Part shown: positions 8,191 through 63,313 of the stretch, piece after piece
How positions within the stretch are numbered: position 1 is the first letter of the stretch
How the letters are laid out: the number at the start of each line of letters is the position of its first letter
Assembly: GCA_030867875.1 (NCBI GenBank)
Contig: JAOWCC010000936.1
Location: forward strand, 81,253,032-81,317,031
Origin: Actinernus sp. WN-2022
Lineage: Eukaryota > Cnidaria > Anthozoa > Actiniaria > Actinernidae
DNA: 64,000 nt
Direction: 5' to 3'
Translations under genes and position numbers: made by a program
The notes under the pieces: generated by a model
What the model was told of the DNA's origin: nothing
The model's database searches: none
The model's input: only the letters and a program-made list of their open reading frames with translations

Positions 8191-8192
8191 AC

Positions 8193-13633: not shown

Positions 13634-13678
13634 CTGAAAAAACGGATTTTAAATCCGTCTCGAGTTTTAAAACGGAAT

Positions 13679-13684
13679 TCAGAA
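13679..13684. repeat. Polinton target site duplication, left (TCAGAA)
   Basis: TCAGAA here and at 29,101-29,106 flank the element. The empty paralogous site at 61,517-61,522 reads TAAGAA once. Six base pairs is the normal Polinton duplication length. Confidence 0.93.
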
Positions 13685-13818
13685 AGTAGTATAGTCGGCG
13701 TCAAAATGATACCCGTTTTTCTTGCACAAGAAAACTCAAAAAGTGAATTCAGAAATTCATTTTTGAGTTTTCTTGTGCAAGAAAAAAGGGTATCAGTTTT
13801 GACGCCGACTATACTACT
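13685..13818. repeat. Terminal palindrome able to form a hairpin
   Basis: The first 134 bp of the TIR fold back on themselves. AGTAGTATAGTCGGCGTCAA at the end pairs with TTGACGCCGACTATACTACT at 13,799-13,818, and the arms continue through CTTGCACAAGAAAACTC to a centre at GAATTCAGAAATTC. There are only a few mismatches (one indel and a G/T difference). The right TIR has the same palindrome at 28,967-29,100. Confidence 0.93.
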
Positions 13819-13919
13819 AGGGGTAACTAAGGGTCATTCAAAGTATCACTAGACATTCTTGTACATAAAATCCAACTTGATAATCCTATTAGAGATATGA
13901 TTACATATAGTTATATCGA
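13685..13919 (+). repeat. Polinton left terminal inverted repeat, 235 bp
   Basis: Starts AGTAGTATAGTCGGCGTC and is identical by eye to the reverse complement of 28,867-29,101. The outer T of the right repeat coincides with the first base of the target duplication, so the right boundary is ambiguous by one base. The inner end carries the TATAGTTATATCGA promoter-like motif at both ends of the element. Confidence 0.96.
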
Positions 13920-14061
13920 CATCGATTGCTTGTACGTAAAATCCAACTTGATAATCCTATTAGAGATATAATTACATATAGTTATATCGCTGCAACAGCC
14001 TTACACCTAAAAATCCAAACTCGAGTACCTGTTAAAGCTATCGTAATATATAGTTGTATCG
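13858..14061 (+). promoter_or_regulatory. Three tandem promoter-like modules upstream of POLB
   Basis: Three head-to-tail copies of a roughly 60-bp module, 13,858-13,919 (in the TIR), 13,929-13,989 and a diverged 14,003-14,061, each run from a 'taaaatccaac' start through 'gataatcctattagagat' to an ATATAGTTATATCG end (ATATAGTTGTATCG in the third). The third ends 8 bp before the POLB start codon. The module end matches the motif in front of other element genes, so it is probably a promoter. The role is inferred. Confidence 0.7.
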
Positions 14062-14069
14062 AAGGGAGA

Positions 14070-17000
14070 ATGGTGAGACCACGTAGTGAACCACTTCCAC
14101 GGAGTCTAGCTCGAGAGGCAGGTGCTATTCTAGAGGAGAGAGACGGAATGCTTGAGGGGATGGAGATAGGTCGCCGTACTATCCGATGGCGCTTCTTCCA
14201 AGGTGTGGCAGGAGACTTGACCCCTAGGATCATGGAAAAGCTAGTTGCAAAGGTAACCACCAGCTTTTACCTGCGCTACAGCTACACCTATCGCATTCGG
14301 AATGTCAACGACGGACGCGTGATTCTATTCTCCAAGACTGTCCCAGGCTCTCCATGGGTGAACATCCTAGAAGATGGAGAAGAGTGGATCAATAGCAAGG
14401 AGACAGCTCGTTTGAATCCCGACAACATCAATCGACCAAATACCCAATGGGCCTTTGTTCGTTGGATATATGTGGATGTCAAGGTCGTGATCGATCGTCA
14501 GCTTTTGTTGGGAACAGGTCCACTACCCCAATGGCTTCGCCAGAAAAAAGGAATGTTTGCCCTTGATCGATATGGCGACAACCTATGTCTTTGGCGCTGC
14601 CTTGCCATGCATGAAGGAGCCCGTGCAGACAAGTGCAACACCTCAGCTCGAAAACTTGCCCAGGCCTTCTATCGCCTGACAGCGCTCACACAAGACGTTC
14701 CCAGAACTTCCTTAGACCAGCTGGAGGAAGTCGAGTTGCACTTTAGAATCGGTATTCGGGTGTATGAACCCACGGAGGACGGCGCTTGGCATCTGACGCG
14801 ACATGCAACTCACTACAAGCATACGATGACGATTGGGATATACGACGGACATGCCTTCTACATCAAGAACATCAACAAGCTAGGGCACATCTACGTATGT
14901 AACGATTGTAAGCAACGGTTCACGAAAGCCTCAGACCTTCACCGCCATGCAGATCGTTGCAGTCGTGGCGAAACGAAGATTGTTTGCCCTGGAAAGGTAA
15001 TCACAGTACCCCAGTCGGCATACGAAAAAGCCTTCTGGCCAGAGAGCACAGCCAGCAAAGTCGCTCTATGCTGGTTGGAACGCGAAACCAAAAGGATTGG
15101 ACAACACATTCATCATGCAGCTTGTGGGCATGGTGGAGAGCATTGGATCGAAGGAGCACCGGTCGACGGCTACGAACCTCTTTCGAAAACCATCTTTCAA
15201 TTTCATGGATGCTATTTCCATGGCTGCCCGAAATGCTTCCCTAGGGAAAGGAGGCTCTATCTCAAGACCTGTGAAAGAACGGCAAAGCTACAAGGAGCTG
15301 GTTATACAGTAGTGGAAGCTTGGGGCTGCTCCACAAAGAAGAAAAACAAACCGGTCCCCACACCAACACAAACTGTCTACCCACACTTCATAGTTTACGA
15401 TTTCGAAGCCTATCTCGACACGACAAAAGGAAGACAACCAACGGACCACCTGACCATCGAAAACGTTCACGTTCCCATATCAGTATCAATTGCCGACACG
15501 TACAATCGAAAGTCAACCCACATCTGTCGACGCAATCCAAAAGAACTCATCGAAGCCTTCGTCGAAGAACTCCAGCTAAGAGCGAAAGTGATCCAAGAAG
15601 TCATTGCAGAACAGTTCTGCCCCAAGACACCTGAATTCTCTTTTGACACCCTACCAAAGAAACAACAAGCGAAGATCGACGAATGGATCCGCCAAGTTCC
15701 AGTAGTGGGATTCAACTCTGGCAGGTACGATCTCAATCTGATCAGGGAGCACTTCGTAGGAATCATTGCTGACACCTGTTCAAAGATCCTGGTAGCAAAG
15801 AAAGCCAATTCCACTATGTTCCTATTGACCCCAGATTTCCGTTTCCTTGATGTGATCAACTACCTTGGACCTGGAACTTCTTATGAACGTTGGGTCGCTG
15901 CCTATGGCTGTGAGTTGCAAAAGAGTTTCTTCCCATATGAGTGGTTCGATTCTCCAGACAAGTTGGATCACATTGGATTACCAGACTATCCAGAGTGGGG
16001 TTCAAAGTTGAAAAGAGAACATCTACTATCTATGTCAGAGTTCGAAGACTGTGAGTGCACCTTTCTCGACAAAGGAATGGAAACCTTTGCAGACTGGCTA
16101 CGATACTACAACGACCTAGATGTAGTTCCATTCCTAGAGGCACTCGAAAAGATGCGAGATTTCTATCACGAGAAAGGAGTAGACATGCTGAAAGACGCAG
16201 TGTCCATTCCAGGAGTCTCACTACAGTTCCTACTTCGAGGTAGTGTAGAAAGGGGAGCTGAGATGTACGCTCCAAGTAAGGAAGCCTACCGCATGCTGAA
16301 AGACGCTGTCGTGGGAGGTCCAAGCATAGTGTTCACCAGACTCCACGAAGCAGGAGTGACTAAGATTCGTAGTCATCAGGGAGGAACTAAGACTTGTCGT
16401 AAGATTCTTGGATACGATGCCAACGCCCTATATCTTTCTACCATGGAATTCGAAATGCCTTGTGGAAAAGAAAAGGTTGTGCACTATGACGATCCAGGTC
16501 CAGTCACTGAAGGATTCGTTGAATGTCTACTTGGTGGAACGTGGTTTGGATATGCAGAAGTAGACATCGAGATACCAAAGAAATTGTGGAAGGAATTTGA
16601 GGAGATGCCACCCTTCTTCTACAACAAGAAAATCCCCAAAGAAGCAATCCCTCCAGAAATGTTGGCCTACCTCACAAAGACAGGTAGAAAGCTCAGCGAG
16701 GAAAAGAAGCTAGTTGGGAGTCTCTCTGGAAAGAAGTTGCTACTCTATGCTCCTCTTCTACTTTGGTATGTAGATCATGGCGCAGTGATCACTGCTGTCT
16801 ACCGCACGATAGACTACGAACCCAAAGAAATCTTCGGATGGTTCGTGGACCAAGTCACTGAGGCACGTCGTATGGGAGATGAAGATAAAGGCGAGGCTTT
16901 GCTGGCAGATGTGTTCAAGCTACTAGGAAACAGCGCCTATGGAAAGTTGCTCGAAGACTTGGGACGCCAAACGAAAGTCACCTATACAAAAGATGAGAAG

Positions 17001-17660
17001 GTTGTGGACAAAGCATTGCGAAGTGTTTGGTTCGAAGACCTGGAAGAGATTGGTGATGCATATGAACTCGAGAGCCGAAAGGACCAGATCCGAATCAAAC
17101 GCCCTTTCCAAGTAGGTATCGCTGTGTACCAGCTTGCGAAGCTGCGTATGCTCGAGTTCTACTACGACTTCCTCGATAAGTACATTGACCGAGATGATTT
17201 CGAATACATACAGATGGACACAGACAGTGCGTACATTGCCATCTCGGGAAATAGCCTCGATGAGGTTGTAAGACCGGAACTACGTGAGGATTTCGAAGCC
17301 AATAGGAAGGAATGGCTAGCTTGGGACAAGTGGAGCAGTCGTACGCCAGGACTCTTCAAACTCGAATTCGAAGGACAGCGCGCCATTGCCCTATGCTCGA
17401 AAGCCTACTACGTCGATACGGGTGGCAGCAAGAAGTATTCCGCTAAAGGTATGTCTAGGCGTCACAATGACATTTCGTGGGATCGATTCAAAGCAGCCCT
17501 CCAGGGTAGTATCGACATGGCGGAAAACCGAGGCTTCCGACTATTGCCAGAAGGTGTGGTAACCTACGACCAATGGAAGCTTGGGCTATCGGCTTACTAC
17601 GACAAAAGACGCGTTCTTCCCGATGGAATCCACACCGAGCCAATAGAGTACGCTGTTTAG
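14070..17660 (+). CDS. POLB: Protein-primed family B DNA polymerase of the Polinton
   Basis: Replicates the linear element by protein priming. From the start at 14,070 it is 1,196 residues. The frame is open from 13,926, but those 48 codons lie in the promoter repeats, so the later ATG is preferred. Motifs in order: an OTU-protease-like region (DRYGDNLCLWRC near 173, GHAFYIKN near 261); a C2H2 zinc finger (C-x2-C...H-x3-H-x4-C, about 276-297); a GGE...VDGY...FHGCYFHGCPKC block (about 355-385) resembling a Vsr/PD-(D/E)XK nuclease; exonuclease motifs YDFEA (443), FNSGRYDL (548) and YYNDLDVV (680); polymerase motifs YDANALYLS (782), KLLGNSAYGK (950) and DTDSAYI (1050). Its stop overlaps the convergent integrase stop by 4 bp. 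The polymerase call is secure; the OTU and Vsr resemblances are by motif only. Confidence 0.97.
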   Translation: MVRPRSEPLPRSLAREAGAILEERDGMLEGMEIGRRTIRWRFFQGVAGDLTPRIMEKLVAKVTTSFYLRYSYTYRIRNVNDGRVILFSKTVPGSPWVNILEDGEEWINSKETARLNPDNINRPNTQWAFVRWIYVDVKVVIDRQLLLGTGPLPQWLRQKKGMFALDRYGDNLCLWRCLAMHEGARADKCNTSARKLAQAFYRLTALTQDVPRTSLDQLEEVELHFRIGIRVYEPTEDGAWHLTRHATHYKHTMTIGIYDGHAFYIKNINKLGHIYVCNDCKQRFTKASDLHRHADRCSRGETKIVCPGKVITVPQSAYEKAFWPESTASKVALCWLERETKRIGQHIHHAACGHGGEHWIEGAPVDGYEPLSKTIFQFHGCYFHGCPKCFPRERRLYLKTCERTAKLQGAGYTVVEAWGCSTKKKNKPVPTPTQTVYPHFIVYDFEAYLDTTKGRQPTDHLTIENVHVPISVSIADTYNRKSTHICRRNPKELIEAFVEELQLRAKVIQEVIAEQFCPKTPEFSFDTLPKKQQAKIDEWIRQVPVVGFNSGRYDLNLIREHFVGIIADTCSKILVAKKANSTMFLLTPDFRFLDVINYLGPGTSYERWVAAYGCELQKSFFPYEWFDSPDKLDHIGLPDYPEWGSKLKREHLLSMSEFEDCECTFLDKGMETFADWLRYYNDLDVVPFLEALEKMRDFYHEKGVDMLKDAVSIPGVSLQFLLRGSVERGAEMYAPSKEAYRMLKDAVVGGPSIVFTRLHEAGVTKIRSHQGGTKTCRKILGYDANALYLSTMEFEMPCGKEKVVHYDDPGPVTEGFVECLLGGTWFGYAEVDIEIPKKLWKEFEEMPPFFYNKKIPKEAIPPEMLAYLTKTGRKLSEEKKLVGSLSGKKLLLYAPLLLWYVDHGAVITAVYRTIDYEPKEIFGWFVDQVTEARRMGDEDKGEALLADVFKLLGNSAYGKLLEDLGRQTKVTYTKDEKVVDKALRSVWFEDLEEIGDAYELESRKDQIRIKRPFQVGIAVYQLAKLRMLEFYYDFLDKYIDRDDFEYIQMDTDSAYIAISGNSLDEVVRPELREDFEANRKEWLAWDKWSSRTPGLFKLEFEGQRAIALCSKAYYVDTGGSKKYSAKGMSRRHNDISWDRFKAALQGSIDMAENRGFRLLPEGVVTYDQWKLGLSAYYDKRRVLPDGIHTEPIEYAV

Positions 17661-18700
17661 CGTCTAGGTACAAACAGAATTCCTTTTGGTGGTAGTTCTG
17701 TATCCCTAGGAACAACTTGTAGCTCTTCACGAACGAATCCACGTTTGGGTGCGTCCTTCTCCTTTGCAAGGTAGTAAAGCACAGGCTGTCCCGAAGATAC
17801 TACACTTCGCGAAATGGTGTATATCTGCAAACTCCACACAGGATCAGTAGCTCTACGTTTTTCACCTCCTTCCAATTCTCCTGGTGCATAAAGATATCGA
17901 ACTAGAACGTCGAATGGTAGACGCTCTTCTCTCAATCCAACGGTTCGCGAATACGTAGGAGTCTTCAGATCTACTTGTTGCGTCATTACAGAATTCGAAG
18001 GCTCTTTACCAGTCAACCGAGTCACCTCACTGTTCATGGCTTTGATAACCATTGGTAAACGAATTACCCATTCTCTACTACGCTCATCTGATCCTTCCGA
18101 AGTAAGCACCATCTCTTGTGCATATTGATAGCCAAACAATCTCTCAGCTAGAGTCCTATTTGCTCTTTCAACAAAACTTTGCGCTCTATGATTACCAGCC
18201 TCACCTCGTTGAACTTTCGTACCATGTAGTTCTAGCGTTTCAGACATACGTCCCATGAATTCTCTACCAGGATCTACTTGCAAGGTCTTTGGCCATTCTA
18301 GTGGACTACGTTTATAGATTCGTTCGAATGCCGCAGAAACTTCACCACTATCTTTAGATGCCAAAGGTTCGGCTTCTTTGTATCGAGAAGCTACGTCGAT
18401 TACCACTAATGCATACTTATATAGTTTCCTTCCACGTCCAGGACGATCGTGTGGTAGAAATATCAAATCAGCTTGGTGGACTTCATTTGGTTTCGATACA
18501 GTCCAATGTGGTCGTGGAATGTGTTTTGGTGGTGGTAGATATATTTGCCACATAGATTGCTTTTCCAACCAACTCCTAGCTACGTCTTCTGATTCTTTCG
18601 CTGCTACGGATAGCTTGCCAATTGCAGTGTGACCTTTCCAATAGCCCATAGGCCCATAGAAGATATTCGCAAGTTTAGAATCCATCATACATCTATACAT
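17657..18700 (-). CDS. INT: Retroviral-type integrase of the Polinton
   Basis: Catalyses integration and generates the 6-bp duplication. The 347-residue protein (start 18,700) has a rve-type core with the acidic triad at D78 (HQADLIF), D143 (QVDPGREF) and E178 (FVERANR), a D-D-35-E-like spacing. The C-terminal part (about 280-335, with VLYYLAKEKDAPKRGFVREE) resembles the SH3/chromo-like tail common in Polinton integrases. The frame stays open upstream to 18,769, but those residues are encoded by the poly-A hairpin, so the ATG at 18,700 (or the MM pair shortly after it) is the likely start. It is convergent with and overlaps POLB. Confidence 0.95.
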   Translation of the reverse strand: MYRCMMDSKLANIFYGPMGYWKGHTAIGKLSVAAKESEDVARSWLEKQSMWQIYLPPPKHIPRPHWTVSKPNEVHQADLIFLPHDRPGRGRKLYKYALVVIDVASRYKEAEPLASKDSGEVSAAFERIYKRSPLEWPKTLQVDPGREFMGRMSETLELHGTKVQRGEAGNHRAQSFVERANRTLAERLFGYQYAQEMVLTSEGSDERSREWVIRLPMVIKAMNSEVTRLTGKEPSNSVMTQQVDLKTPTYSRTVGLREERLPFDVLVRYLYAPGELEGGEKRRATDPVWSLQIYTISRSVVSSGQPVLYYLAKEKDAPKRGFVREELQVVPRDTELPPKGILFVPRR

Positions 18701-18717
18701 TCTAACCTTCAACAGAT

Positions 18718-18782
18718 GAAAAAAAAAAAAAAGGAAGAATGAAGAAAGTCGTTGCGTGACCCTCTTCATTCTTCCTTTTTTC
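18718..18782. terminator. Hairpin 1 with poly-A/T flanks, probable 3'-end signal
   Basis: The stem GGAAGAATGAAG (18,733-18,744) pairs perfectly with CTTCATTCTTCC (18,764-18,775), with A and T runs extending the stem and a 19-nt loop. It lies downstream of the minus-strand capsid cluster and just before the integrase start. The same stem with an inverted related loop occurs at 27,489-27,531. A transcript-end or processing role is inferred from position and shape. Confidence 0.7.
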
Positions 18783-18794
18783 CGTTTTTTTTTT

Positions 18795-18994
18795 TACTAG
18801 TAGCTTAGGGTAACTTACTAGTAGCTTAGGGTAACTTACTAGTAGCTTAGGGTAACTTACTAGTAGCTTAGGGTAACTTACTAGTAGCTTACTAGTAGCT
18901 TAGGGTTAGCTTAGGGTAACTTACTAGTAGCTTAGGGTAACTTACTAGTAGCTTACTAGTAGCTTAGGGTTAGCTTAGTAGTAGCTAGTAGTAG
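18795..18994. repeat. 21-bp tandem repeat between INT and capsid cluster
   Basis: About nine units of ACTAGTAGCTTAGGGTAACTT with deletions and fusions between units. Each carries a TTAGGG hexamer. The unit shares ACTA-GGGTAACT-type sequence with the inner TIR near 13,815-13,835 (CTACTAGGGGTAACTAAGGG), so it may derive from it. Confidence 0.88.
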
Positions 18995-18997
18995 TAT

Positions 18998-19429
18998 CTA
19001 TATCCATTTACTAATAGCGTATCCAACACCTAGCATTCCACCACCAACGTAGAGCAACTCGCCAGTCTTCTGATTGTTTGAGGGTTTGTAGTAGTCAGAT
19101 AAGCGGGGTTCTTTCATCTCTTTGAGACGTTTAAGCGCCTTACGTAACTTATCGGATCGCACTAAGGCTTCGTTGGTATCTCTTTGATCGTTGCGTGCGT
19201 TGCGTTCAAGACCTTCCTGCTCTTGTGCATAGTCGTATCGTCTTTGACGTTCGATTGTATACGCTTTCATTTCGCGTTCTAGTTTTTCGGTGGCCCTATC
19301 GTGTCTCTCTCGTTCCTTATCTACAGCATCGTCCTTTCCAAACATTCTAGCTAGTATGCCACCACCAGTAAATGCCGTCGCATTCAAAACAGCGCCGAAG
19401 ATCGACATACCAATTGCTGCTAGTGCCAT
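18998..19429 (-). CDS. 143-aa coiled-coil membrane protein, conserved Polinton type
   Basis: Hydrophobic N-terminus (residues 1-28, Gly/Ala-rich), a strongly charged coiled coil (about 35-105, rich in ER/KE/RQRR), then RLSDYYKPS and a second hydrophobic segment, LLYVGGGMLGVGYAISKWI. The shape suggests a virion-associated membrane-interacting protein. I recognise the family as one that accompanies Polinton capsid genes, without a known function. It is the last gene of the minus-strand cluster and its ATG overlaps the previous stop by one base (TAATG). Confidence 0.8.
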   Translation of the reverse strand: MALAAIGMSIFGAVLNATAFTGGGILARMFGKDDAVDKERERHDRATEKLEREMKAYTIERQRRYDYAQEQEGLERNARNDQRDTNEALVRSDKLRKALKRLKEMKEPRLSDYYKPSNNQKTGELLYVGGGMLGVGYAISKWI

Positions 19430-19644
19430 TAGTGTTTGGTCTTTTCTTTTTCTTTCTCAAGTTGTTTCTCAAGATATTCCTTTGCGTATAAGCTACCAAG
19501 TATCACGGCAGTCCACTTTGCGTAATTCGCTAGGGAAGAAGAAGGATCACTAAGCATAGATTCCTTGGTAGTCTTTTTTACGATCCACCCAATACCAGCA
19601 GCGAGTCCAACGATTTTGACTGCATCGGTTGCCGTCTTCGTCAA
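19429..19644 (-). CDS. 71-aa small hydrophobic protein, conserved Polinton type
   Basis: Two short hydrophobic segments (DAVKIVGLAAGIGWIVKK, and NYAKWTAVILGSLY around residues 40-53) separated by a conserved-looking DPSSS motif, ending in a Lys/Glu-rich tail. I recognise this architecture as a small protein found near capsid genes in animal Polintons; function unknown, probably membrane or virion associated. It overlaps both neighbours (ATGA at 19,644 with the upstream gene, TAATG at 19,429 downstream), which suggests coupled expression. Confidence 0.78.
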   Translation of the reverse strand: MTKTATDAVKIVGLAAGIGWIVKKTTKESMLSDPSSSLANYAKWTAVILGSLYAKEYLEKQLEKEKEKTKH

Positions 19645-20442: not shown

Positions 20443-21058
20443 GATAATATGTTATAGGTGCTGGGAGCTCTAACACTACCTCGAAAGGATGGCGGAGACA
20501 GAAGCACATGCGAGCGAACTTATGGGATCCAAGTATCATTCGTAACTCTTTGCATTCTTGTGAGCCTCCATAATCCTCAAATATCTTTTTGCCATCTACG
20601 GCCGATGCTGTATGGAATGCTACTACGATAGCTACGTTCTCACGGAAGGGCTTACATATGCTCGTTAGTTGTTGGGACAGCACCCAAACGGAAATCCCTA
20701 TATGTCGTGCAGAAAAGGCTAAGTCCACTAGCTTGTCAGTTCGTTTCTTGACGTCCTTCGATGCGGCGCAATCGTCGAGAATCAATAGAGTATTGGTACC
20801 GGACCAAAATGTTGCGGAAATACTCAAAGTAGCATCGATGGCATCCTGCGGTGGTGATATGACGAAGAAACGAGGATCTCGATTTGCAAATCCACGATAA
20901 GTTTTGTTGTGGGCATACGTAGGACAAATCAGTACTATGTAATCGAACTTACCACGAAATGATCCACGAAGTTGTTCTATGAGAAATGCAGTCTTCCCAC
21001 AATTCGTTGGACCGACTATGAGTGCGTTGAACGGTACGTGCTCTACGAGAGAATCCAT
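20435..21058 (-). CDS. ATP: A32/FtsK-HerA-like packaging ATPase
   Basis: A 207-residue P-loop ATPase with Walker A GPTNCGKT at residues 16-23 and Walker B TLLILDD ending at D95-D96. A following LSQQ segment (near 127-130) could be the sensor motif. Length and motif spacing match the genome-packaging ATPases of Polintons and related dsDNA viruses, which pump DNA into capsids. The start is set by the ATG whose first base is the last base of the capsid-gene TGA stop (TGATG), which implies tight coupling to capsid expression. Confidence 0.93.
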   Translation of the reverse strand: MDSLVEHVPFNALIVGPTNCGKTAFLIEQLRGSFRGKFDYIVLICPTYAHNKTYRGFANRDPRFFVISPPQDAIDATLSISATFWSGTNTLLILDDCAASKDVKKRTDKLVDLAFSARHIGISVWVLSQQLTSICKPFRENVAIVVAFHTASAVDGKKIFEDYGGSQECKELRMILGSHKFARMCFCLRHPFEVVLELPAPITYYHG

Positions 21059-22293
21059 CAGTATAATATACTCTGCAGAGATCTGTTCAATATCGTGACC
21101 TGAGCATCCGCAAGGACATAGATGTGCATTTTCACATTTCCACTTCCCTTAGCAGTTCTATGTATGCGAATGTCGATGTCCTTTCCACTGCCGGTTTGTG
21201 CCAAGCCATCACCATGAACGGTGGAATCTTTTGCTGTGCGACAATCGATTAGAATAGAGAATCTATTTTCAAAGAACTTCTTTGGAGTCATAGAAGTATT
21301 GGGTGTACCAAACCAGCTTCTTGCAGCCTCCCAGAAATCTAGGGGAAGCATGCCGCTTGGAAAGAGTCTGTTGGGAATCCCATTGACATCTACTTCTACC
21401 TTCAAGATATCTGGATTCGAGAATGCTTCACTATCTCGCGTGCCAATGGTAGGTGGATCTATGAATAGTAGAAGCAGTCCAGCAAAGGATCGTCGTGGAA
21501 CATTGATGTTTTGAGATATCAAAGTATCGGACGTTTTAGCGATATCTACTGTTTTGAAGTGAACAGCGTAGTTGTATAGGAATGCAGTACCTATTTCATA
21601 TTTGTGAAGTGCACTACTAGCCAGCGTTTCGTTCCTGATTGCTTCGTATTCTAGTTGGATGTTGGTAAGTTGGTACGTACCTATCTTCGTCGTATCCGAT
21701 CCAATTACAACCTCGTTGGCAGCCGCTAGAGTTAACTCGAACGTAATGGTACTTTCTAAGGCATGTGGATATAGAACTCCATGTTGTGTCAGAATGTCAA
21801 CATCTAAGGGAATCCTATACTTAGAACCACATGCAGTTAGGAGCGCGTTGTCTGCAGCAGATGAAGTACTTGCGTCACCAGCTTTCGATCGTAGCTTATT
21901 CAAGTTCTCTGATTGAATGCCTTGTTGTATTCTAGACTCTCTCTCCTGCGTAGATAGGTATACATCGGAGTATGTTTGTAGGAGGTCTGGCCTGACAAGG
22001 TCTTCTACTGTTTCAGCTCCCATCCTACAGATTCTACGCATGACCAAACAGCGTCCAACGTTCGAAACGACTCTGTTATTCGCATGTCCACCAGATAGTA
22101 CGATGTCGCCCAATAGCGCTAAGCTACCAGGTACTAGTACTACATCTTCTGCTAGCTTTGGAACTTCTACGTATAGAGTCTCACCTGGATTGGCAGATGA
22201 TCGAGTGAAAGTTTTCCTATACAAGTCTCGCGGAGCCTTGAGTGCATGAGGCTCTCTTCGTACTTGTGTGGGATCCAATGTTAACGAGATCAT
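21058..22293 (-). CDS. Probable major capsid protein (double jelly roll)
   Basis: 411 residues from the ATG at 22,293; the upstream in-frame ATG at 22,329 lies inside the neighbouring promoter and gene. The protein is beta-rich, with VVLVPGSLALLGDIVLSGG near the start, TYQLTNIQLEYEAIR in the middle, RRSFAGLLLLFIDP, and a C-terminus ending DAQVTILNRSLQSILY. I recognise this family as the capsid-type protein encoded directly upstream of the ATPase in many animal Polintons. Length and composition suit a hexon-like double jelly roll, but the fold cannot be proven by reading. It is first gene of a six-gene minus-strand cluster and is transcribed from the divergent promoter at 22,294-22,327. Confidence 0.72.
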   Translation of the reverse strand: MISLTLDPTQVRREPHALKAPRDLYRKTFTRSSANPGETLYVEVPKLAEDVVLVPGSLALLGDIVLSGGHANNRVVSNVGRCLVMRRICRMGAETVEDLVRPDLLQTYSDVYLSTQERESRIQQGIQSENLNKLRSKAGDASTSSAADNALLTACGSKYRIPLDVDILTQHGVLYPHALESTITFELTLAAANEVVIGSDTTKIGTYQLTNIQLEYEAIRNETLASSALHKYEIGTAFLYNYAVHFKTVDIAKTSDTLISQNINVPRRSFAGLLLLFIDPPTIGTRDSEAFSNPDILKVEVDVNGIPNRLFPSGMLPLDFWEAARSWFGTPNTSMTPKKFFENRFSILIDCRTAKDSTVHGDGLAQTGSGKDIDIRIHRTAKGSGNVKMHIYVLADAQVTILNRSLQSILY

Positions 22294-22327
22294 GTTGAAT
22301 ATAACTATATATGTAGATATGTTTAAC
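22294..22327. promoter_or_regulatory. 34-bp bidirectional promoter, capsid gene / 364-aa gene
   Basis: Only 34 bp separate the divergent ATGs. On the minus strand the core reads TATATAGTTATATTCAAC directly before ATG; on the plus strand the segment ends TATGTTTAAC before ATG. The segment is partly palindromic (GTTGAATATA ... TATGTTTAAC). It matches the layout at 25,114-25,156. Confidence 0.7.
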
Positions 22328-23422
22328 ATGGCCTCTGAGGGTAGGTATGATGAAAGAACTGATGAAGCTGAAAGAGGAAGAGACTACGACAACGATGATA
22401 CTGTCAATGAAGAAGCACGGAAATTGGCGTCAGACTCTACGAATGTGGATCCGAGTGAATCATTAAACCTGAAAACTAGACGCGACTTCGCCAAGGAAGG
22501 TGCTCGACCAAAGAATCGGGAAACCTCGTTTACCGTAGAAGATAACGATTACTTCGACGAACTCGTTGCGGAGGATGAGGATAGAATCAAACATCCGAAA
22601 TTTAGCGATCGCCGCGTAGTCTTCAAAACAGGCACATCGGATGAAATGAAACAAATGCTATTCGATACTGTATGGAAACACTATGTGGATGTAGGGATTC
22701 GTGGAGGATTCCTTGAGATAACTGGAATATGGGAGGCCAATAAGGAACTGGCTAGAATCTATCTTCACGTACTTGGAAGTAAAGAGAAGCCCATACCTTT
22801 GACCACAGTGAAGGGTGAAAGATATCAAAGTATGGGTAAAGATCTCAAATTTGCCCTAGGTCCTACAGATGCAGAAAGAGAAGACCAAGTCAGCCAAGGT
22901 CAAGAAAAGGCCGCCGAACATCTCAAAGTAGAAGATAGCATACTTCAAGACCTAACGTCAACTGAGGATCAGAAGGAAGCGGCTAAGAAAGAGAAAGTAC
23001 ACATCCATAACGAAATAGAATTACTTGAACGTCAAGAGGGAGCCATACTAGAACGTATGTCGCTACGTGAAAGGATCAAATACATTTTCAGAAAGCATGG
23101 AATGACCGTTCTTGCAGTGGTAACTTCCGTTGGCGCCATCATTAGTACGATAGTTTCCCTGTTGTCGAGATCCGTACCGAAACCAGTAAAGGGTGGTATT
23201 GATAAAGCAGCAGATGCAGTAAAGAAGGGATTGCAAACGACTGGGGGGTTGTTGAAAGAAATGGGAAAGAAACTTGGACAGATCCTACCTGGAATGATTG
23301 GATCGATTGCGAGTTTCATATTTACCATGGCTGGTAAAGCTCTGGGAGTACTAGCGCAGAACGTTTGGTTATTCATCGTAGCAATAGTGGTGATCACTAT
23401 AGAGCAATACAAACGACGTTAA
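22328..23422 (+). CDS. 364-aa protein with acidic N-half, coiled coil and C-terminal membrane segments
   Basis: Start chosen at 22,328 (MASEGRYDERTD) because the earlier in-frame ATGs fall in the promoter or the opposing gene. The N-terminal half is hydrophilic and acidic. A Glu/Lys-rich coiled coil covers about 195-250. Three hydrophobic segments follow: about 259-280 (GMTVLAVVTSVGAIIST), 319-343 (GMIGSIASFIFTMAGKAL) and 346-360 (VWLFIVAIVVITIEQ). I recognise the C-terminal pattern, a KYIFRKHGMTV-like start and a KLGQILPGM motif, from invertebrate Polinton-type elements. A membrane-active virion protein is plausible but unproven. It converges with the 563-aa gene and overlaps its stop by 4 bp. 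Confidence 0.75.
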   Translation: MASEGRYDERTDEAERGRDYDNDDTVNEEARKLASDSTNVDPSESLNLKTRRDFAKEGARPKNRETSFTVEDNDYFDELVAEDEDRIKHPKFSDRRVVFKTGTSDEMKQMLFDTVWKHYVDVGIRGGFLEITGIWEANKELARIYLHVLGSKEKPIPLTTVKGERYQSMGKDLKFALGPTDAEREDQVSQGQEKAAEHLKVEDSILQDLTSTEDQKEAAKKEKVHIHNEIELLERQEGAILERMSLRERIKYIFRKHGMTVLAVVTSVGAIISTIVSLLSRSVPKPVKGGIDKAADAVKKGLQTTGGLLKEMGKKLGQILPGMIGSIASFIFTMAGKALGVLAQNVWLFIVAIVVITIEQYKRR

Positions 23423-25113
23423 CGAAACAACATCCATGCAATTCCAGCTGTGGCAATGGATGTCACTGCGAGATTAATCTCATGTTGTGAGACAGCCTTT
23501 GCCTTTGCTTTTGCCTTTGCCTTTGCCTTTGGTACAGGAACTTGTTTCTCGGGAGGCTGCACCAATTTCTTATCTGGTGGTCCTTTCATAGGAAGAGGTA
23601 GATGTCCTTTGCCTTCTGCATTGACGTCGTTAGTGCCTAGCACCATATCTTTCGTAGCTTTCGGGATTGGATTCTTATAGCCATCTTTCTCACTAAGATA
23701 GTACACTAGATCGCTTGGCAATAATCGCACACCTGGAGCTATTGCTAGATCGAGCCTCTTATGTGTCCTCGTTATAGCAGTAAGATAGTTTTTGTAGCTC
23801 ACCACTAAGTCGTTTTCGAGAATAGCATCTTCGACTAAGCTCTTAAACTTTTCTTTGACGTTATGGCTATCTATGATGGATCCGTTCAAGTCGGCTTGAG
23901 CACCAAGCATGCAATGTCCAAAAGCCTCGACAGATCTATCCAACCTACCCAATCCAACATCTGTCAAACCCTTTCCGATTGGTGGTGTAAACCAATTGTA
24001 TTGCTTTCCTTCATGTTCATCGTTCCTAATGAAGGCCACAAGATCGCCCTGATCCTCCTTACCTCCTTGGTCTGCAAATAAATTATGTTTCTGAGGCCAT
24101 GTGGTTGCACCTTTGTCATAGCTTCGGTCTTCATGGACGTTTACGTATCCTAGCCAACCCGGGTACAAAAGGAATATATCTCCTAGTCCATTATTCCTAC
24201 CTCCGTGCCATCGGAAATCTGGTGGGAAATCTGGTGTTCGAGATATGCCAAATTCGATGCACAATTTCTCAAGAGCTGATTTGTTATAGGGGTTATCCAT
24301 TTGCTTGAAATTAGAGTTACCAGGTAAAGGAACTCCATGAGTACCACCAAGTTCACGTAGAATTCTTCGTATCGTGAAATAAACATGGAATCGTAGGAAC
24401 CCCTGAACGACTGGTGGATACGTTTTGAAAATAGGATCAAGCAATGACACTCCACATCCAGAAGTCGCACACCACGTTGCGAAATTCAATTGTTGAGGCC
24501 AGTATTTGAAATCCGGACCATGTAACCAATGGTAGGACTCATTTGCTGTCATATGCTTTACGACGGTCTCCTTGAATATATTTGGAACGCCTGCTTTGAA
24601 CCTATCCTTTGGGGTGCCATATATCCATAGATTAGTGAGATCGATATCTTGTGCCGGTCCAGTAGAAGGAACTGCTGTAATAGGATATTTCGCACTCCTA
24701 TCTAGGATCAACGTAGATGGGAAACCTTTATGCATATCCCACAACGCATTATCGATGCGTCTTTGAGTGACTGCAGGTAGCTTGGAGACATCATCGCCGT
24801 AAACGACATAGCTAGAATCTCCATCTCGAAACCAAATACTCGTCGAATATTTGCCTGGACCGTTCACTTCCGTAGAGACATAGAACTTGTGAAGATCTGC
24901 ATGTGGGTGTCTTTTCTTGAACTTCGATAGTAGATTCCCATTCAATGTTGCAACCTCTCTACTTTTCGCATCTTCTCTAGCTATCCGAGCTTGATTCTCT
25001 CTCCTAGCTTGATTCTCAGCCTTTGACCTTATATTAGCATTCGGTGTTGGGAACTCTTCCTCTTCGTCCTTCCCTCCGTAGTGGTAACTGAAAAGACCTC
25101 CGGACCTCCTCAT
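23419..25113 (-). CDS. Large conserved Polinton protein with Lys-Ala tail and C-terminal membrane segment
   Basis: The start at 25,113 (MRRSGGLFSYHYGG) gives about 564 residues; earlier ATGs lie in the divergent promoter. The N-terminus has a charged helical stretch rich in Asn-Gln-Ala-Arg, then a globular region with SYHWLHGPDFKYWPQQLNFA, CATSGCG and FLRFHVYFTIRRIL, and a large C-terminal part with DRSVEAFGHCMLGAQ. Near the end is a Pro/Lys-rich linker, then five or six KA dipeptides (plus-strand 23,487-23,530) and a hydrophobic tail, AVTSIATAGIAWMLF. I recognise the core as a recurrent protein of invertebrate Polinton-like elements with no assigned function. Its size and tail suggest a structural or virion surface protein. 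Confidence 0.78.
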   Translation of the reverse strand: MRRSGGLFSYHYGGKDEEEEFPTPNANIRSKAENQARRENQARIAREDAKSREVATLNGNLLSKFKKRHPHADLHKFYVSTEVNGPGKYSTSIWFRDGDSSYVVYGDDVSKLPAVTQRRIDNALWDMHKGFPSTLILDRSAKYPITAVPSTGPAQDIDLTNLWIYGTPKDRFKAGVPNIFKETVVKHMTANESYHWLHGPDFKYWPQQLNFATWCATSGCGVSLLDPIFKTYPPVVQGFLRFHVYFTIRRILRELGGTHGVPLPGNSNFKQMDNPYNKSALEKLCIEFGISRTPDFPPDFRWHGGRNNGLGDIFLLYPGWLGYVNVHEDRSYDKGATTWPQKHNLFADQGGKEDQGDLVAFIRNDEHEGKQYNWFTPPIGKGLTDVGLGRLDRSVEAFGHCMLGAQADLNGSIIDSHNVKEKFKSLVEDAILENDLVVSYKNYLTAITRTHKRLDLAIAPGVRLLPSDLVYYLSEKDGYKNPIPKATKDMVLGTNDVNAEGKGHLPLPMKGPPDKKLVQPPEKQVPVPKAKAKAKAKAKAVSQHEINLAVTSIATAGIAWMLFR

Positions 25114-25156
25114 GTTGAAGCTATACGTATATATAGTTATACCTTTAACACATAAG
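25114..25156. promoter_or_regulatory. 43-bp bidirectional promoter, 563-aa gene / 223-aa gene
   Basis: It lies between divergent ATGs. It contains TATATAGTTATACC in the plus direction and begins with GTTGAAG and runs to TTTAAC, the same bracketing half-sites as the promoter at 22,294-22,327. The conserved arrangement suggests one regulator or TBP-like recognition for both gene pairs. Confidence 0.68.
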
Positions 25157-25828
25157 ATGATTCTCTTATATGTCACCACAACATTGACCAACCATACTGT
25201 CTACTTCGACGACCCTATTCTTATACAGAACATTTCACTACTCGAGATCACTTTCGATAACAGTTGGTGGAACCTACCAGAGGCGGGCTCATTCAGGTGG
25301 AATGCTGGTAGTATTATGTTCCCACACGACCTTTCTGCAGGGTCTTATGATTTTAAGAGAATCAAGAGGGTCTTAAAGCCTGCAAGTGATGCTGGTATCG
25401 TGGCATTCGAGGACGATCTCCCCATTGGGATCAAATCCATAATAGTTAATGAACCAATCACGATCGATAAGAATTTCTACGCACTATTAGGTGTCAAAGG
25501 TGAAGAAAAAGAGAACAACGAGTTCCTACTAAAAGTTGGTACTTACTACGTTAAGATCAAAGATACCCGCACAGTGTATGTCCATTGTGATGCGGTGGAT
25601 TCCGGTTCCTCACTTCTAGAGGGAAAACGATCGAAAATCTTGGCTAGCATAGAGGTCCGAGGTCCTTGGCTTTCAAGGGCAACCTATACTATAACGAATC
25701 CCCAAACCTTACAAGCTATAGGGACAATGCAAAACAGTCTTAGCCTTACGATTTTTGATGAGAGAGGCGACATGATAGACTTCCATGGTCGATTGATACG
25801 ATACGAGTTGAAGCTAAACCTCTTATAA
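25157..25828 (+). CDS. 223-aa beta-rich protein, candidate minor structural protein
   Basis: From the ATG at 25,157 (MILLYVTTTLTNHT). Predominantly short alternating hydrophobic/polar stretches consistent with beta strands, with IDKNFYALLGVKG in the middle and FDERGDMIDFHGRLIRYEL at the C-terminus. The C-terminal pattern is one I associate with Polinton-encoded proteins of unknown function. A penton, fibre or minor jelly-roll role is possible because no other minor capsid candidate is evident, but this is inference. It is followed 8 bp later by the 203-aa gene on the same strand. Confidence 0.65.
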   Translation: MILLYVTTTLTNHTVYFDDPILIQNISLLEITFDNSWWNLPEAGSFRWNAGSIMFPHDLSAGSYDFKRIKRVLKPASDAGIVAFEDDLPIGIKSIIVNEPITIDKNFYALLGVKGEEKENNEFLLKVGTYYVKIKDTRTVYVHCDAVDSGSSLLEGKRSKILASIEVRGPWLSRATYTITNPQTLQAIGTMQNSLSLTIFDERGDMIDFHGRLIRYELKLNLL

Positions 25829-25836
25829 GTTATAAG

Positions 25837-26448
25837 ATGGAAGGCGATTCGATTCAACCGTTTCCCTCAGCACCAAGTATCTATCCACAGATCGTTAGTG
25901 ACACTGGAAAGAACTTTAGACTGCAAACGATCCGAGACACGCTTTCGGACATCGAAGTTCAAGAAAGGCACTACGAAGGTGTGCGCAAGAAATATGCACG
26001 TTCTCAAGGAATAGTTCATGGCATCGCAGTGGTAACTGGAGGTCTATCTGTGATCTTATCTGGATCTGGATTGGGCGCAGCGTTGACTGGGGTTGGAATA
26101 GTGATTGGTCTACCACTTGGAGTTATTGGTGGACTATGTGGATTAATTTCAGCATCTACGACCCTTGGAGCTAAGAAGTTAGGAATGAAGGTTTCTAAGC
26201 ATGAAAAGACAACTATGTTGGCAAAGGCGAAAATCAATACGATTCGCGATCTAGTATCGAAGGCCTTACGCGATGAAAACATATCCGACTCTGAATACAG
26301 TCTCATCCTGAATGAAGCGAATAAGTATGAGATCATGAGATCTGAAATTCGTCGCAAGGCTTCCATAGGTGAAAAAAGCACGGATCGGGTTCGAGCCGAA
26401 CTCAAGCAAGAAGTGCAAAAGGAAATGCGAGAAAAACTTGGAATGTAA
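25837..26448 (+). CDS. 203-aa protein with long Gly-rich hydrophobic core, conserved Polinton type
   Basis: A Pro/Ser-rich N-terminus leads to a charged helix (about 30-55), then a continuous Gly/Val/Ile-rich hydrophobic core of about 55 residues (57-112, with GGLSVILSGSGLGAALTGVG), then a charged helical C-terminus with SKALRDENISDSEYSLILNE. The hydrophobic core flanked by coils recalls membrane-insertion proteins. I recognise the family from invertebrate Polinton-like elements; function unknown. A TATAAGTTATAAG motif spans its start and may be its own promoter. It converges on the TFIIB gene with a 3-bp gap. Confidence 0.75.
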   Translation: MEGDSIQPFPSAPSIYPQIVSDTGKNFRLQTIRDTLSDIEVQERHYEGVRKKYARSQGIVHGIAVVTGGLSVILSGSGLGAALTGVGIVIGLPLGVIGGLCGLISASTTLGAKKLGMKVSKHEKTTMLAKAKINTIRDLVSKALRDENISDSEYSLILNEANKYEIMRSEIRRKASIGEKSTDRVRAELKQEVQKEMREKLGM

Positions 26449-26451
26449 GAA

Positions 26452-27444
26452 TCAACGTTTCCTATGAAAGGAACGAACATGGCTCTCACTTTCACTTTGC
26501 CAAGTCCTACTGCTAGTTAGCCTATGTCTAGTGTAGATTGGTTCGAAGTGGGAATGGTAAGAAGACAACTCCTTGACAAAACGCTTGACCGCATTTCCAA
26601 ATATGTCACATCGTTTAACGACATCCTTAAGAGACATAGACGATCCGGAGCGACGTAGCACCTCGTAACTTGCTCCAACGACTTTCGTCTTAAGTATTGA
26701 TTTGGGGCCTATATTGTTTTCCATTGCCGTAGTAACAACCTCGTGGACTATTTGTTGAACGTCCCTAGGTACTCCTACAAGATCTAGTTGTAGGAAAGTC
26801 GTTGCAATGTGAGGAACTATGCGCTTAGCATCCAAGTCTACATCAATCTTATCGTCGTCACACAGAGAACGTATGAAGACCTCTCCACTATGGATGCCTT
26901 CGTTTCTTAGTTGCATGAAGCGAGCGACCTCACCTTTAGATCGGACGAATCCACATTGTATGCATGCCTGGTAGAGTAGAGCAGCTAAAATATTTTTCTT
27001 AGCATCGCTACGCTTGAGACAAACTTTCATTACTTGGGTGAATGCGTCGGCTACGATTTCTAACGCGTTCATAGGGAACGATAGATCATAACTTTGTTTG
27101 TAAATAGTGTTGTATGCTCGTAGTTCTTGTAGTAGCGTTCGTCGTTTCAGTTCTATGTCATCATCGCTTTGCTTTGGTTTTGCGCGGTCTAGATCACTTT
27201 GATACTTAAACCCGTCCGGACCTACTATACGCAGTCGAGTAGTAATAATATCGATCTTCGTTTCTTCACATGGTTCAATCTCGGAAACAAGACCACAGGT
27301 GGGACATACGAATTCCGTTCCTTGTATTTCAAAGGGACAGAGACACTCAGGACATGTTTCACTGGTGTTAATATGTTCCACTTGTGGTTTGATATTCAGG
27401 CTTCTACGAATTCCAGGACCAAACAATCTGACTAGCTCGTCCAT
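26452..27444 (-). CDS. TFIIB-like transcription factor
   Basis: 330 residues. The N-terminal zinc ribbon has cysteines at 31, 34, 47 and 50 (CPEC ... CPTCG), as in TFIIB/TFB proteins, which recruit RNA polymerase to TBP-bound promoters. The rest (about 95-310) is helical and fits two cyclin-like repeats, with KKNILAALLYQACIQCGF in the first and VVGASYEVLRRSG in the second. TFIIB-like genes are known in some Polintons and in giant viruses. The gene could direct element-specific transcription through the shared TATAGTTATA motif; its own ATG is preceded directly by TATAGTTGTATC. Confidence 0.88.
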   Translation of the reverse strand: MDELVRLFGPGIRRSLNIKPQVEHINTSETCPECLCPFEIQGTEFVCPTCGLVSEIEPCEETKIDIITTRLRIVGPDGFKYQSDLDRAKPKQSDDDIELKRRTLLQELRAYNTIYKQSYDLSFPMNALEIVADAFTQVMKVCLKRSDAKKNILAALLYQACIQCGFVRSKGEVARFMQLRNEGIHSGEVFIRSLCDDDKIDVDLDAKRIVPHIATTFLQLDLVGVPRDVQQIVHEVVTTAMENNIGPKSILKTKVVGASYEVLRRSGSSMSLKDVVKRCDIFGNAVKRFVKELSSYHSHFEPIYTRHRLTSSRTWQSESESHVRSFHRKR

Positions 27445-27460
27445 GATACAACTATAGATG
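27445..27460 (-). promoter_or_regulatory. Promoter motif of the TFIIB-like gene
   Basis: On the minus strand CTATAGTTGTATC abuts the ATG. It is the same core as in front of POLB (14,048-14,060), the F-box/ankyrin gene and the two bidirectional promoters. Confidence 0.6.
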
Positions 27461-27475
27461 TCGTACGTTCAATAG

Positions 27476-27545
27476 AAAAAAAAAAAAAGGAAGAATGAAG
27501 AGGGCCACACAACGACCTTCTTCATTCTTCCTTTTTTCTTTTTTC
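27476..27545. terminator. Hairpin 2 with poly-A/T flanks, probable 3'-end signal
   Basis: The stem GGAAGAATGAAG (27,489-27,500) pairs with CTTCATTCTTCC (27,520-27,531), flanked by an A run and a T-rich run, with a 19-nt loop. Sixteen of 19 loop bases match the reverse complement of the loop of hairpin 1. It lies between the 148-aa gene's stop and the TFIIB promoter, both on the minus strand. Confidence 0.7.
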
Positions 27546-27555
27546 GTGGCTATTC

Positions 27556-28002
27556 CTAAGCATCCTTCTCGTTCCTCAAGGCAGCCAACACCTCGTTGAG
27601 CGCATGGTTGAGAGACTCTCCAAGACCTTCCACTGGTTCCAGCACTCTTGGTTCTGCGGGCAATGCTACCTCCAGTTCCACCATGTTTGGCTCCTCCTTT
27701 CTTGGATCCTCTAGCTTCTTGCTGGACTTCTTAGCGCGTCTTATATAGACACCGGAAGACTTCACCTTGATGGTGAGACGGTCGCATCCTGAGCAAAGCT
27801 CGTAATCAGTACGACATCCTTTACCGCACTTCGAGCATGGTACATATGGGGCACAGCCTTTTGAGATTTGGTAGTTGTGCTGGGAACAGAACTTCGTTGT
27901 CTTCGAAATCTTCTTTGGACATTTTGAGTCCTTCCCTCTCATCAACCAATCACAAGTCGTCTCAGGCATTGCGGCGTCTACATTTGAGTTCTTCTTCGAC
28001 AT
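27556..28002 (-). CDS. 148-aa Cys-rich zinc-binding protein, unknown function
   Basis: The N-terminal half has Cys/His at 17, 28, 39, 42, 50, 56, 59, 63, 70 and 73, including CSKCGKGC and ELCSGCD, consistent with two or three zinc-binding knuckles. The C-terminal half is basic then acidic (KKSSKKLEDPRKEEP, then Glu/Leu-rich) and likely disordered. I do not recognise a specific family; the first Cys/His cluster resembles small zinc-finger proteins of large DNA viruses. It lies between the F-box/ankyrin gene and TFIIB on the same strand. Confidence 0.75.
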   Translation of the reverse strand: MSKKNSNVDAAMPETTCDWLMRGKDSKCPKKISKTTKFCSQHNYQISKGCAPYVPCSKCGKGCRTDYELCSGCDRLTIKVKSSGVYIRRAKKSSKKLEDPRKEEPNMVELEVALPAEPRVLEPVEGLGESLNHALNEVLAALRNEKDA

Positions 28003-28079
28003 GTTCGATCTGTATGGTATTAATGCGTACTAAGATGACAACGAATGCTAATGTCGTGGAATAAAGAATATATACTAAT

Positions 28080-28177
28080 ACCATTCGGTGCCAATATACA
28101 GTATAATAATCATTCCTTTAACATATACTTCAAGTTTGGATTTTATGTACAAGAATGTCTAGTGACACTTTGGCTTC
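28080..28177 (-). promoter_or_regulatory. Internal partial copy of the TIR inner segment
   Basis: GGATTTTATGTACAAGAATG followed by TCTAGTGACACTTTG (28,137-28,173) matches the inner right TIR (28,913-28,950) in the same orientation. An AT-rich stretch lies between it and the 148-aa gene start. The copy sits directly after the F-box/ankyrin stop and upstream of the 148-aa gene, so it may supply that gene's promoter. Confidence 0.65.
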
Positions 28178-28855
28178 CTACGTGGCAGAATGAGCATCCA
28201 TGTAGTTGCGTAGTACAACCCTTTCGTCCTCTGTGAGCTGGGAGTATTGCCACTTAACGAACCATTTAGCGGTATCAAGATGACCATTGTTACAGGCGTA
28301 TTCTATAGCAAGATCAATGCATTCATACTCTAGGGTTATCTGAAAACGTCGCATGAGCCACTTAACGTTATTAAGATGACCATTCCTACTGGCACCTAAT
28401 ATAGCAAAACTGACGGCCTTATCCTCTTTGGTGAACTGGAAGTGCTTAATGAGCCACTTAGCGATACCAAGATGACCATGCTCAAGGGCAGCGCGTAGAA
28501 CGTGATTGGTGTGTCTGTCCATCATATCGAAACGTAAGTGCTTGATGAGCCACTTAACAGCATTAAGATCACCATATTCGCTGGCGTAGAGAAGAGAAAA
28601 GCTATCGTCGATGGAGCTTGCGGAAATACCGAAAGTTCGAGCCAATTCGTCTCGATCGTCGTCACTATGAGTAGACCTCAAACCAAAGCATAGTGCTAGT
28701 TTACGGAACACTTGGTCTACGTTTTTGTAGCGCGCAAGAGATGTGGCACCATTTAGGTGTTTCGATGTCCTTGAGATGCTTGCGAATGACCAAGGCTCTG
28801 CATGCTCTACGATCTTAGTCAGAATTTCTAGAGGGAGGCACGATATATAATCCAT
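28178..28855 (-). CDS. F-box plus ankyrin-repeat protein
   Basis: 225 residues. Residues 5-45 fit an F-box (LPLEILTKIVEH, then SFASISRTSKHLNG), which would bind Skp1. Residues about 88-205 form at least four ankyrin repeats of the type GDLNAVKWLIKH, GHLGIAKWLIKH, GHLNNVKWLMRR and GHLDTAKWFVKW. Such F-box/ankyrin combinations are common in poxviruses and giant viruses, where they retarget host ubiquitin ligases. It is the rightmost gene, starting 12 bp inside the right TIR, with TATAGTTATATCGATC upstream. It is an accessory gene not part of the usual Polinton core. Confidence 0.85.
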   Translation of the reverse strand: MDYISCLPLEILTKIVEHAEPWSFASISRTSKHLNGATSLARYKNVDQVFRKLALCFGLRSTHSDDDRDELARTFGISASSIDDSFSLLYASEYGDLNAVKWLIKHLRFDMMDRHTNHVLRAALEHGHLGIAKWLIKHFQFTKEDKAVSFAILGASRNGHLNNVKWLMRRFQITLEYECIDLAIEYACNNGHLDTAKWFVKWQYSQLTEDERVVLRNYMDAHSAT

Positions 28856-28866
28856 AGTGGAAGAGA

Positions 28867-29100
28867 TCGATATAACTATATGTAATCATATCTCTAATAG
28901 GATTATCAAGTTGGATTTTATGTACAAGAATGTCTAGTGATACTTTGAATGACCCTTAGTTACCCCTAGTAGTATAGTCGGCGTCAAAACTGATACCCTT
29001 TTTTCTTGCACAAGAAAACTCAAAAATGAATTTCTGAATTCACTTTTTGAGTTTTCTTGTGCAAGAAAAACGGGTATCATTTTGACGCCGACTATACTAC
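28867..29100 (-). repeat. Polinton right terminal inverted repeat
   Basis: Reverse complement of 13,685-13,919 with no difference seen. It contains the terminal palindrome (about 28,967-29,100) and, at its inner end, the TATAGTTATATCGA motif used by the F-box/ankyrin gene. Confidence 0.96.
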
Positions 29101-29106
29101 TCAGAA
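29101..29106. repeat. Polinton target site duplication, right (TCAGAA)
   Basis: Matches the left copy at 13,679-13,684. It is followed by AGGAGTCCAAG exactly as in the empty site at 61,517. Confidence 0.93.
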
Positions 29107-61471: not shown

Positions 61472-61516
61472 CTGAAAAAACGGATTTGAAATCCGTCTCG
61501 AGTTTTAAAACGGAAT

Positions 61517-61522
61517 TAAGAA
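61517..61522. other. Empty Polinton target site (TAAGAA)
   Basis: The sequence GGAATTAAGAAGGAGTCC is uninterrupted here, whereas copy A has GGAATTCAGAA, the Polinton, then TCAGAAGGAGTCC. It defines the insertion point exactly; one base differs (TAAGAA against TCAGAA). Confidence 0.95.
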
Positions 61523-63310: not shown

Positions 63311-63313
63311 TAT

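Follow-up and report, generated by a model that had tools for sequence, protein, structure and literature searches.

How does a Polinton-like element complete and protect the two ends of its linear genome? For Polintons this has been understood by analogy with adenoviruses and tectiviruses, and in vertebrate Mavericks the repeated AGT triplets at the ends have been read as jump-back sites (both in passages of PMC8097293). The question is raised by a 15,417-bp Polinton/Maverick-like element that occupies positions 13,685-29,101 of a stretch of 64,000 nucleotides (the window, by which we mean the whole stretch analysed) in contig JAOWCC010000936.1 of the sea anemone Actinernus sp. WN-2022 (assembly GCA_030867875.1). 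By comparing ends over many copies of this element, we corrected the length of its target site duplication (TSD) from 6 to 5 bp and found that its termini are hairpins, the first 134 bp of each terminal inverted repeat (TIR) being itself palindromic, a feature absent from the first-pass annotation of the window. Among the papers listed by searches of the open-access full-text literature, a scope outside which most subscription papers fall, none was seen to describe hairpin Polinton ends; terminal hairpins may be new for Polinton-like elements.

The ends were sampled from 59 copies located through their integrase matches, with both end regions taken and large contigs preferred; 58 of these gave both termini, and the remaining one (L107), whose right end lies beyond the sequence taken for that copy, does not figure in the counts of ends. 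Together with the window copy and two matches to an inverted-dimer element that was kept apart (described below), the sampled copies make up the 62 of 111 integrase matches that were examined. Terminal palindromes are present at 116 of the 116 ends. All of these termini, which in L077 were set by the outermost end motif on each side, begin with AGTAGTATA, and their first 25 bases have an inverted copy further in that matches at 22-25 of 25 positions. The palindromes are 133-134 or 228-234 bp long, except for one of 190 bp (left end of L045) and one of 57 bp (right end of L077). Exact 5-bp duplications of differing sequence surround 56 of the 58 copies, the exceptions being L023 and L081. The repeat of the window copy has a predicted DNA fold of -70.5 kcal/mol (z -17). 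In the hairpin, the outermost run of perfect pairing spans no more than about 28 bp. The 16 long hairpins that were aligned show no variation in their outermost 10 bp or at the tip.

The two arms of the hairpin change together. Of the 107 pairs in an alignment of 16 distinct long hairpins, 22 are altered on both sides (shuffle mean, 14.5), and 97.4% of the alignment cells pair, versus 92.0% in the shuffles; for neither value was any of 500 shuffles as high. Cells changed on both sides number 80, against a shuffle mean of 23.8, and sliding the partner by 1-3 bases leaves at most 5 both-side pairs and 45.4% pairing. In nine short hairpins, both-side changes affect 7 of 61 pairs; the shuffle mean is 3.5, a single shuffle in 500 reached 7, and sliding left no more than one such pair. 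The double changes go beyond single loci and divide subfamilies, and in the subfamily with 228-bp palindromes an entire block has been replaced in both arms. Within copies, left and right were compared in 16 whose two flip hairpins are equal in length but not identical (those with unequal lengths or a flop end were skipped). These have 28 differing positions with a partner, 10 of which form five complete double changes that keep the pairing (L049, L057, L075, L091, and L113), while 17 make or break one pair and 1 is unpaired at both ends. Left and right differ at 41 of 10,998 positions in the hairpin versus 153 of 4,940 in the next 95 bp, a comparison that is dominated by a few copies with different interiors and on which we do not rely. 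Copying of one arm from the other offers the simplest root cause of the compensated variants.

The hairpin tip (GAATTCAGAAA...) is asymmetric, and hence the orientation of each end, flip or flop, is readable. One end each of L045 (left) and L077 (right) was not scored for orientation. Of the remainder, 52 of the 56 copies scorable at both ends are flip/flip, and four (L013, L043, L059, and L119) have one flop end; flop thus occurs at 4 and flip at 110 of 114 scorable ends, not counting the window copy, both ends of which are flip. Read as its reverse complement, the flop end matches its partner at 231/233 (L013), 227/233 (L043), 233/233 (L059), and 230/233 (L119) positions, whereas the direct comparison gives 222/235, 216/235, and 220/235 for the first three. 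All four copies carry normal 5-bp duplications. Taken together, the arm covariation and the inversion suggest that the ends pass through a folded state, like the hairpins of parvoviruses and poxviruses.

With regard to the window copy itself, the first-pass annotation had described a recent, apparently intact Polinton with 235-bp TIRs lacking any difference by eye, and this is supported by the identity of the repeats, Polinton genes recognized by Pfam, and an empty paralogous site. The left host flank terminates in ...GGAATTCAGAA and the right one opens with CAGAAGGAG...; the duplication is CAGAA rather than the TCAGAA proposed earlier, because the preceding T is the final base of the right repeat. 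The paralogous tandem-duplicate block lies at 59,267-63,315, where the flanks match 59,267-61,522 and 61,519-63,315 with 96.8% and 95.3% identity. An alignment of the joined 60 + 60 bp of flank to the empty site gave four differences, one of them within the target; thus, the unoccupied site that had been claimed is present, but it reads AAGAA, with one mismatch to the duplication. The tandem duplicates differ by 69 substitutions over 2,915 aligned sites. An insertion as old as that would be expected to have accumulated some 5.6 differences between its two TIRs, and none is seen (Poisson P of ~0.004, with the caveat that the two ends may be homogenized); therefore, the insertion most likely postdates the local duplication, one of the histories that had been suggested for the locus. 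The target-site flank GAATTCAGAA (window 13,675-13,688) resembles the hairpin tip GAATTCAGAAATTC, a likeness that is probably due to chance because the empty paralog reads GAATTAAGAA.

The window copy belongs to a large and recently mobile family. We searched its own genome (1.39 Gb in 1,772 contigs) with three queries, each of which yields a best-scoring subset that is a lower bound and is biased toward intact, similar copies. The best 111 of 6,580 first-look candidates for the integrase are 97-100% identical and the best 121 of 2,941 for the TFIIB-like protein are 96-100% identical, none with an internal stop in either case, and the best 40 of 2,182 for the 235-bp repeat are 100% identical over their full length. 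Since just 29 of the 121 TFIIB-like matches pair with a listed integrase copy, the union amounts to about 202 separate elements (203 if the inverted dimer is counted twice); a number of those located on small contigs may represent alternative haplotypes. The locus had been regarded as a rare self-contained case for reading exact ends; with at least ~202 near-identical copies, and clean duplications around 56 of the 58 sampled, it is not rare.

Two loci in this genome have an unusual organization. The 8.9-kb inverted-dimer (snap-back) element at C306:108,898-117,772 (L003, L004, L009, and L010) is 99.8-99.95% palindromic in the parts examined. In it the integrase gene and the terminal portion of the polymerase gene lie head to head, the outer 1.9 kb has no match to the window element, and the AGTAGTATATAAAG ends, which lack a terminal hairpin, are flanked by a 5-bp duplication of its own, CTTTC. 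At C1615:10,257,707-10,281,580 (L129-L132), a full-length element is preceded by three left-type TIRs with a spacing of exactly 4,175 bp. The right host flank is found in inverted orientation at both inner junctions, and TCAAA is the TSD common to the outer ends. This arrangement may have arisen by misassembly at the identical inverted repeats.

Table 1. Features of the Polinton-like element and its target site (window coordinates; ORF, open reading frame)
Feature	Position	Strand	Remarks
Left TSD CAGAA, 5 bp	13680..13684	.	5 bp also in 56/58 other copies
Left TIR	13685..13919	+	235 bp, first bases AGTAGT
Left terminal palindrome (hairpin), 134 bp	13685..13818	+	93% self-complementary; short class
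Asymmetric hairpin tip GAATTCAGAAATTC, left	13745..13758	+	
Family-B DNA polymerase, 1196 aa	14070..17660	+	PF03175 "DNA polymerase type B, organellar and viral," E 3.1e-11
Retrovirus-type (rve) integrase, 370 aa	17657..18769	-	PF00665, E 5.9e-10
ORF, 143 aa	18998..19429	-	No assigned identity
ORF, 102 aa	19641..19949	-	No assigned identity
ORF, 181 aa	19897..20442	-	No assigned identity
A32-type packaging ATPase, 207 aa	20435..21058	-	PF04665, E 2.4e-11
Double jelly-roll major capsid protein, 423 aa as called	21058..22329	-	Fold search
ORF, 376 aa	22292..23422	+	No assigned identity
ORF, 564 aa	23419..25113	-	No assigned identity
ORF, 238 aa, candidate minor capsid protein	25112..25828	+	Guess by size and place; no Pfam match
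ORF, 203 aa	25837..26448	+	No assigned identity
TFIIB-like protein, 330 aa	26452..27444	-	CxxC...CxxC and helical repeats
ORF, 148 aa	27556..28002	-	No assigned identity
F-box and ankyrin-repeat protein, 225 aa	28178..28855	-	PF12796, E 7.3e-18; PF00646, E 8.4e-5
Right TIR	28867..29101	-	100% identical to left (235/235)
Right terminal palindrome (hairpin)	28968..29101	-	Same orientation as left (flip/flip)
Asymmetric hairpin tip, right	29028..29041	-	
Right TSD CAGAA	29102..29106	.	
Unoccupied target AAGAA in paralogous copy	61518..61522	.	

The gene complement of the element is listed in Table 1. Eighteen ORFs were detected, of which three nested opposite-strand or shadow overlaps and one entering from the host were set aside, leaving 14 of at least 100 aa, one fewer than the 15 counted in the first pass. 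The family-B polymerase, rve integrase, packaging ATPase, double jelly-roll capsid protein, and long TIRs with a repeated end motif are features of Polintons/Mavericks, and the polymerase is predicted, by its family, to be of the protein-primed type. The capsid sequence alone gave nothing meaningful against solved structures and a fold search was required, in which the best structural matches were PBCV-1 and other large DNA viruses. Pfam scans of the 14 ORFs recovered no protease at an E value of 0.1 (a divergent one could escape), no replication-initiator nickase of the NS1/Rep type, and no telomere resolvase. A relative of the capsid protein was found in the coral Oculina. Further capsid matches in the Actinernus genome, which have open frames of about 414, 418, and 468-475 codons versus 438-441 in the window family, are 44-48% identical to the Oculina protein, with an internal stop in 2 of 100 rows; those of differing length probably represent additional Polinton families in this host. 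Viral contigs were scanned with two end-motif patterns, with the TFIIB-like protein, and with the capsid protein both as a single sequence and as an alignment; no relative outside this genome was confirmed, and five candidate loci (L133-L137) had no inverted repeat around the match and were taken as chance.

A short motif, ATATAGTTATAT, recurs near the gene starts of the element. Allowing at most one mismatch, it occurs six times, whereas a set of 30 first-order random sequences contains it 0.17 times on average. These six occurrences are not independent of each other, however, two being in the two TIRs and one in a near-copy beside the left TIR. Allowing two mismatches, there are 13 strand-wise matches in the 15.4 kb of the element versus 18 in the remaining 48.6 kb of the window. 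The motif and its variants lie at window positions 13,905, 13,976, 14,048, 22,299, 25,131, 27,446, and 28,870. They precede the start codons of the polymerase, TFIIB-like, F-box/ankyrin, and 564-aa ORFs by no more than about 20 bases. In the major capsid protein, 376-aa, and 238-aa ORFs, they fall among the first codons as called, and the true starts of these ORFs may be later ATGs. The motif and the TFIIB-like protein together hint at element-specific promoters. The near-copy, which spans 61 bp at 13,929-13,989 and resembles the inner TIR, follows the left TIR only; similar near-copies are seen behind the left TIR in L011, L013, L017, L023, and L027.

The host DNA of the window contains other palindromic repeats, at 48,112-48,337, 39,931-40,348, 38,756-38,881, and 50,499-50,730, which are 76-90% self-complementary and show no match to the element hairpins in a self-comparison of the window. 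An ungapped palindrome scan of the window missed the element hairpins, single-base gaps in the arms being the presumed cause, and was not used as a control. Tandem arrays are present in the host DNA at 32,656-34,155 (100-bp period), 8,191-8,594, and 12,293-12,558, and TRAF/MATH genes adjoin the element.

On the basis of these observations, we give a probability of roughly 0.55 to the reading that the element integrated recently and belongs to a large polintovirus family, in which the linear genome has hairpins at its ends and passes through a folded state. Under this proposal, copying by the family-B polymerase would be protein primed and would begin, with jump-back, at the AGT repeats, and the displaced single strand would fold each end onto itself, as the covariation and inversion suggest. 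The fold might both protect the end and rebuild the duplex start site. Occasional extension or repair while folded would copy arm from arm, keeping their complementarity, and would sometimes leave the end inverted as flop. The integrase would then act on the duplex in its unfolded state, inserting it with a stagger of 5 bp. Hairpin transfer in every round would be expected to yield near-equal flip and flop, which is not seen; hence, we favor protein priming as the routine and folding as a rebuilding or protecting step.

Several points weigh against a folded replicative state. The ends are known here from integrated copies, with no free DNA, terminal protein, or folded end seen, and the sampled copies are the best-scoring integrase matches rather than a random set. 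Flop is rare and never found at both ends of any of the 56 copies scorable there, so inversion is not part of every copying round. Further pair types are no more numerous than in shuffles (419 of 500 as high for the long hairpins, 229 of 500 for the short), and the structure tested is that of the top sequence in each alignment, which favors it over its slid versions. Three of the five left/right double changes (L057, L091, and L113) are the same pair, 20/214, and may reflect ends from two lineages rather than three separate arm copyings. Finally, the arms could be corrected or inverted in the host chromosome after insertion. This last point leads to the main rival, namely, that the element is a protein-primed Polinton of the ordinary kind whose palindrome serves only as a pair of binding sites for the integrase or a replication protein, with host repair or recombination correcting the arms and inverting the ends once the element has integrated. 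The predominance of flip and a polymerase and end motif typical of Polintons are all in keeping with it, as is the presence of other long host palindromes (e.g., that at 48,112-48,337), which indicates that cruciform-prone repeats are tolerated. We nevertheless consider it less likely, given that the four flop copies have normal 5-bp duplications and that the double changes split subfamilies and not single loci alone, which suggests correction in a replicating lineage.

Parvovirus terminal hairpins are likewise imperfect and mismatched and come in flip and flop forms. An obligate rolling-hairpin replication of that style, dispensing with protein priming, would account for palindromic ends in two orientations, and the palindromic inverted dimer on C306 would fit it. 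It would also predict flip and flop in near-equal numbers, against the 4 flop ends among 114, and it agrees poorly with the family-B polymerase, the repeated end triplets, and the lack of a replication-initiator nickase by Pfam in the 14 ORFs; we judge it improbable. Still less credible is an assembly artefact at palindromes and inverted repeats. One locus, on C1615, is possibly misassembled, but the exact duplications of differing sequence around nearly all sampled copies are at odds with such an origin, the outermost perfect pairing is judged too short for a long-read assembler to invert the hairpin, and arm covariation is not an expected assembly error.

In its other properties the element resembles the vertebrate Mavericks/Polintons as characterized in the corresponding sections of PMC8097293: it shares the family-B polymerase, rve integrase, packaging ATPase, and major capsid protein, its size and TIR length fall within their 12.7-24.6 kb and 46-1,447 bp, and its ends, AGTAGT//ACTACT, agree with their (AGT)2//(ACT)2 motif. 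It differs in its 5-bp TSD, theirs being 6 bp, and is therefore not placed in the vertebrate Maverick subgroup; it further differs in possessing a TFIIB-like gene, with no protease recognized, and terminal hairpins, the words "hairpin" and "palindrom" being absent from the main text of that paper. Polinton-like viruses are described as having TSDs of 5-6 bp, with 6 bp typical of rve integrases (part of PMC12220804), a range that includes the 5 bp of the present element. The "Meldviruses" are said to combine an adintovirus-like polymerase and integrase with capsids like those of larger DNA viruses (part of PMC11071296). Compared by description, they are similar to our element in having these two enzymes beside a capsid protein with structural matches to PBCV-1 and large DNA viruses; the words "hairpin" and "TFIIB" do not occur in the main text of that paper. 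Poxvirus ends, according to a section of PMC8956199, are also imperfect hairpins with mismatches in flip and flop forms. Hairpin telomeres of the poxvirus type are marked by covalent closure of the ends of the free genome. The present element departs from both parvoviruses and poxviruses in lacking a nickase or resolvase by Pfam, in the rarity of flop, and in that its ends are known from integrated copies only. The Bidnaviridae share a Polinton-derived family-B polymerase and terminal inverted repeats, but their genome is single stranded and their repeats are stated, in the passage concerned, not to form parvovirus hairpins (PMC4061559).

A further-reaching version of our proposal, which we offer tentatively and at less than even odds, is that an animal polintovirus lineage acquired true hairpin telomeres, such that protein-primed replication by the family-B polymerase is combined with hairpin transfer between the arms, by which the ends are renewed and at times inverted, while the TFIIB-like factor serves the gene-start motif. 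The presence of a TFIIB-like gene in a Polinton would suggest that the element directs its own transcription. With some 200 or more near-identical copies in one genome, and 58 sampled copies displaying exact boundaries, covarying arms, and flip and flop, the copying of the ends becomes readable from sequence. If the proposal is true, hairpin telomeres would bridge the adenovirus/Polinton and the parvovirus/poxvirus ways of ending linear DNA genomes.

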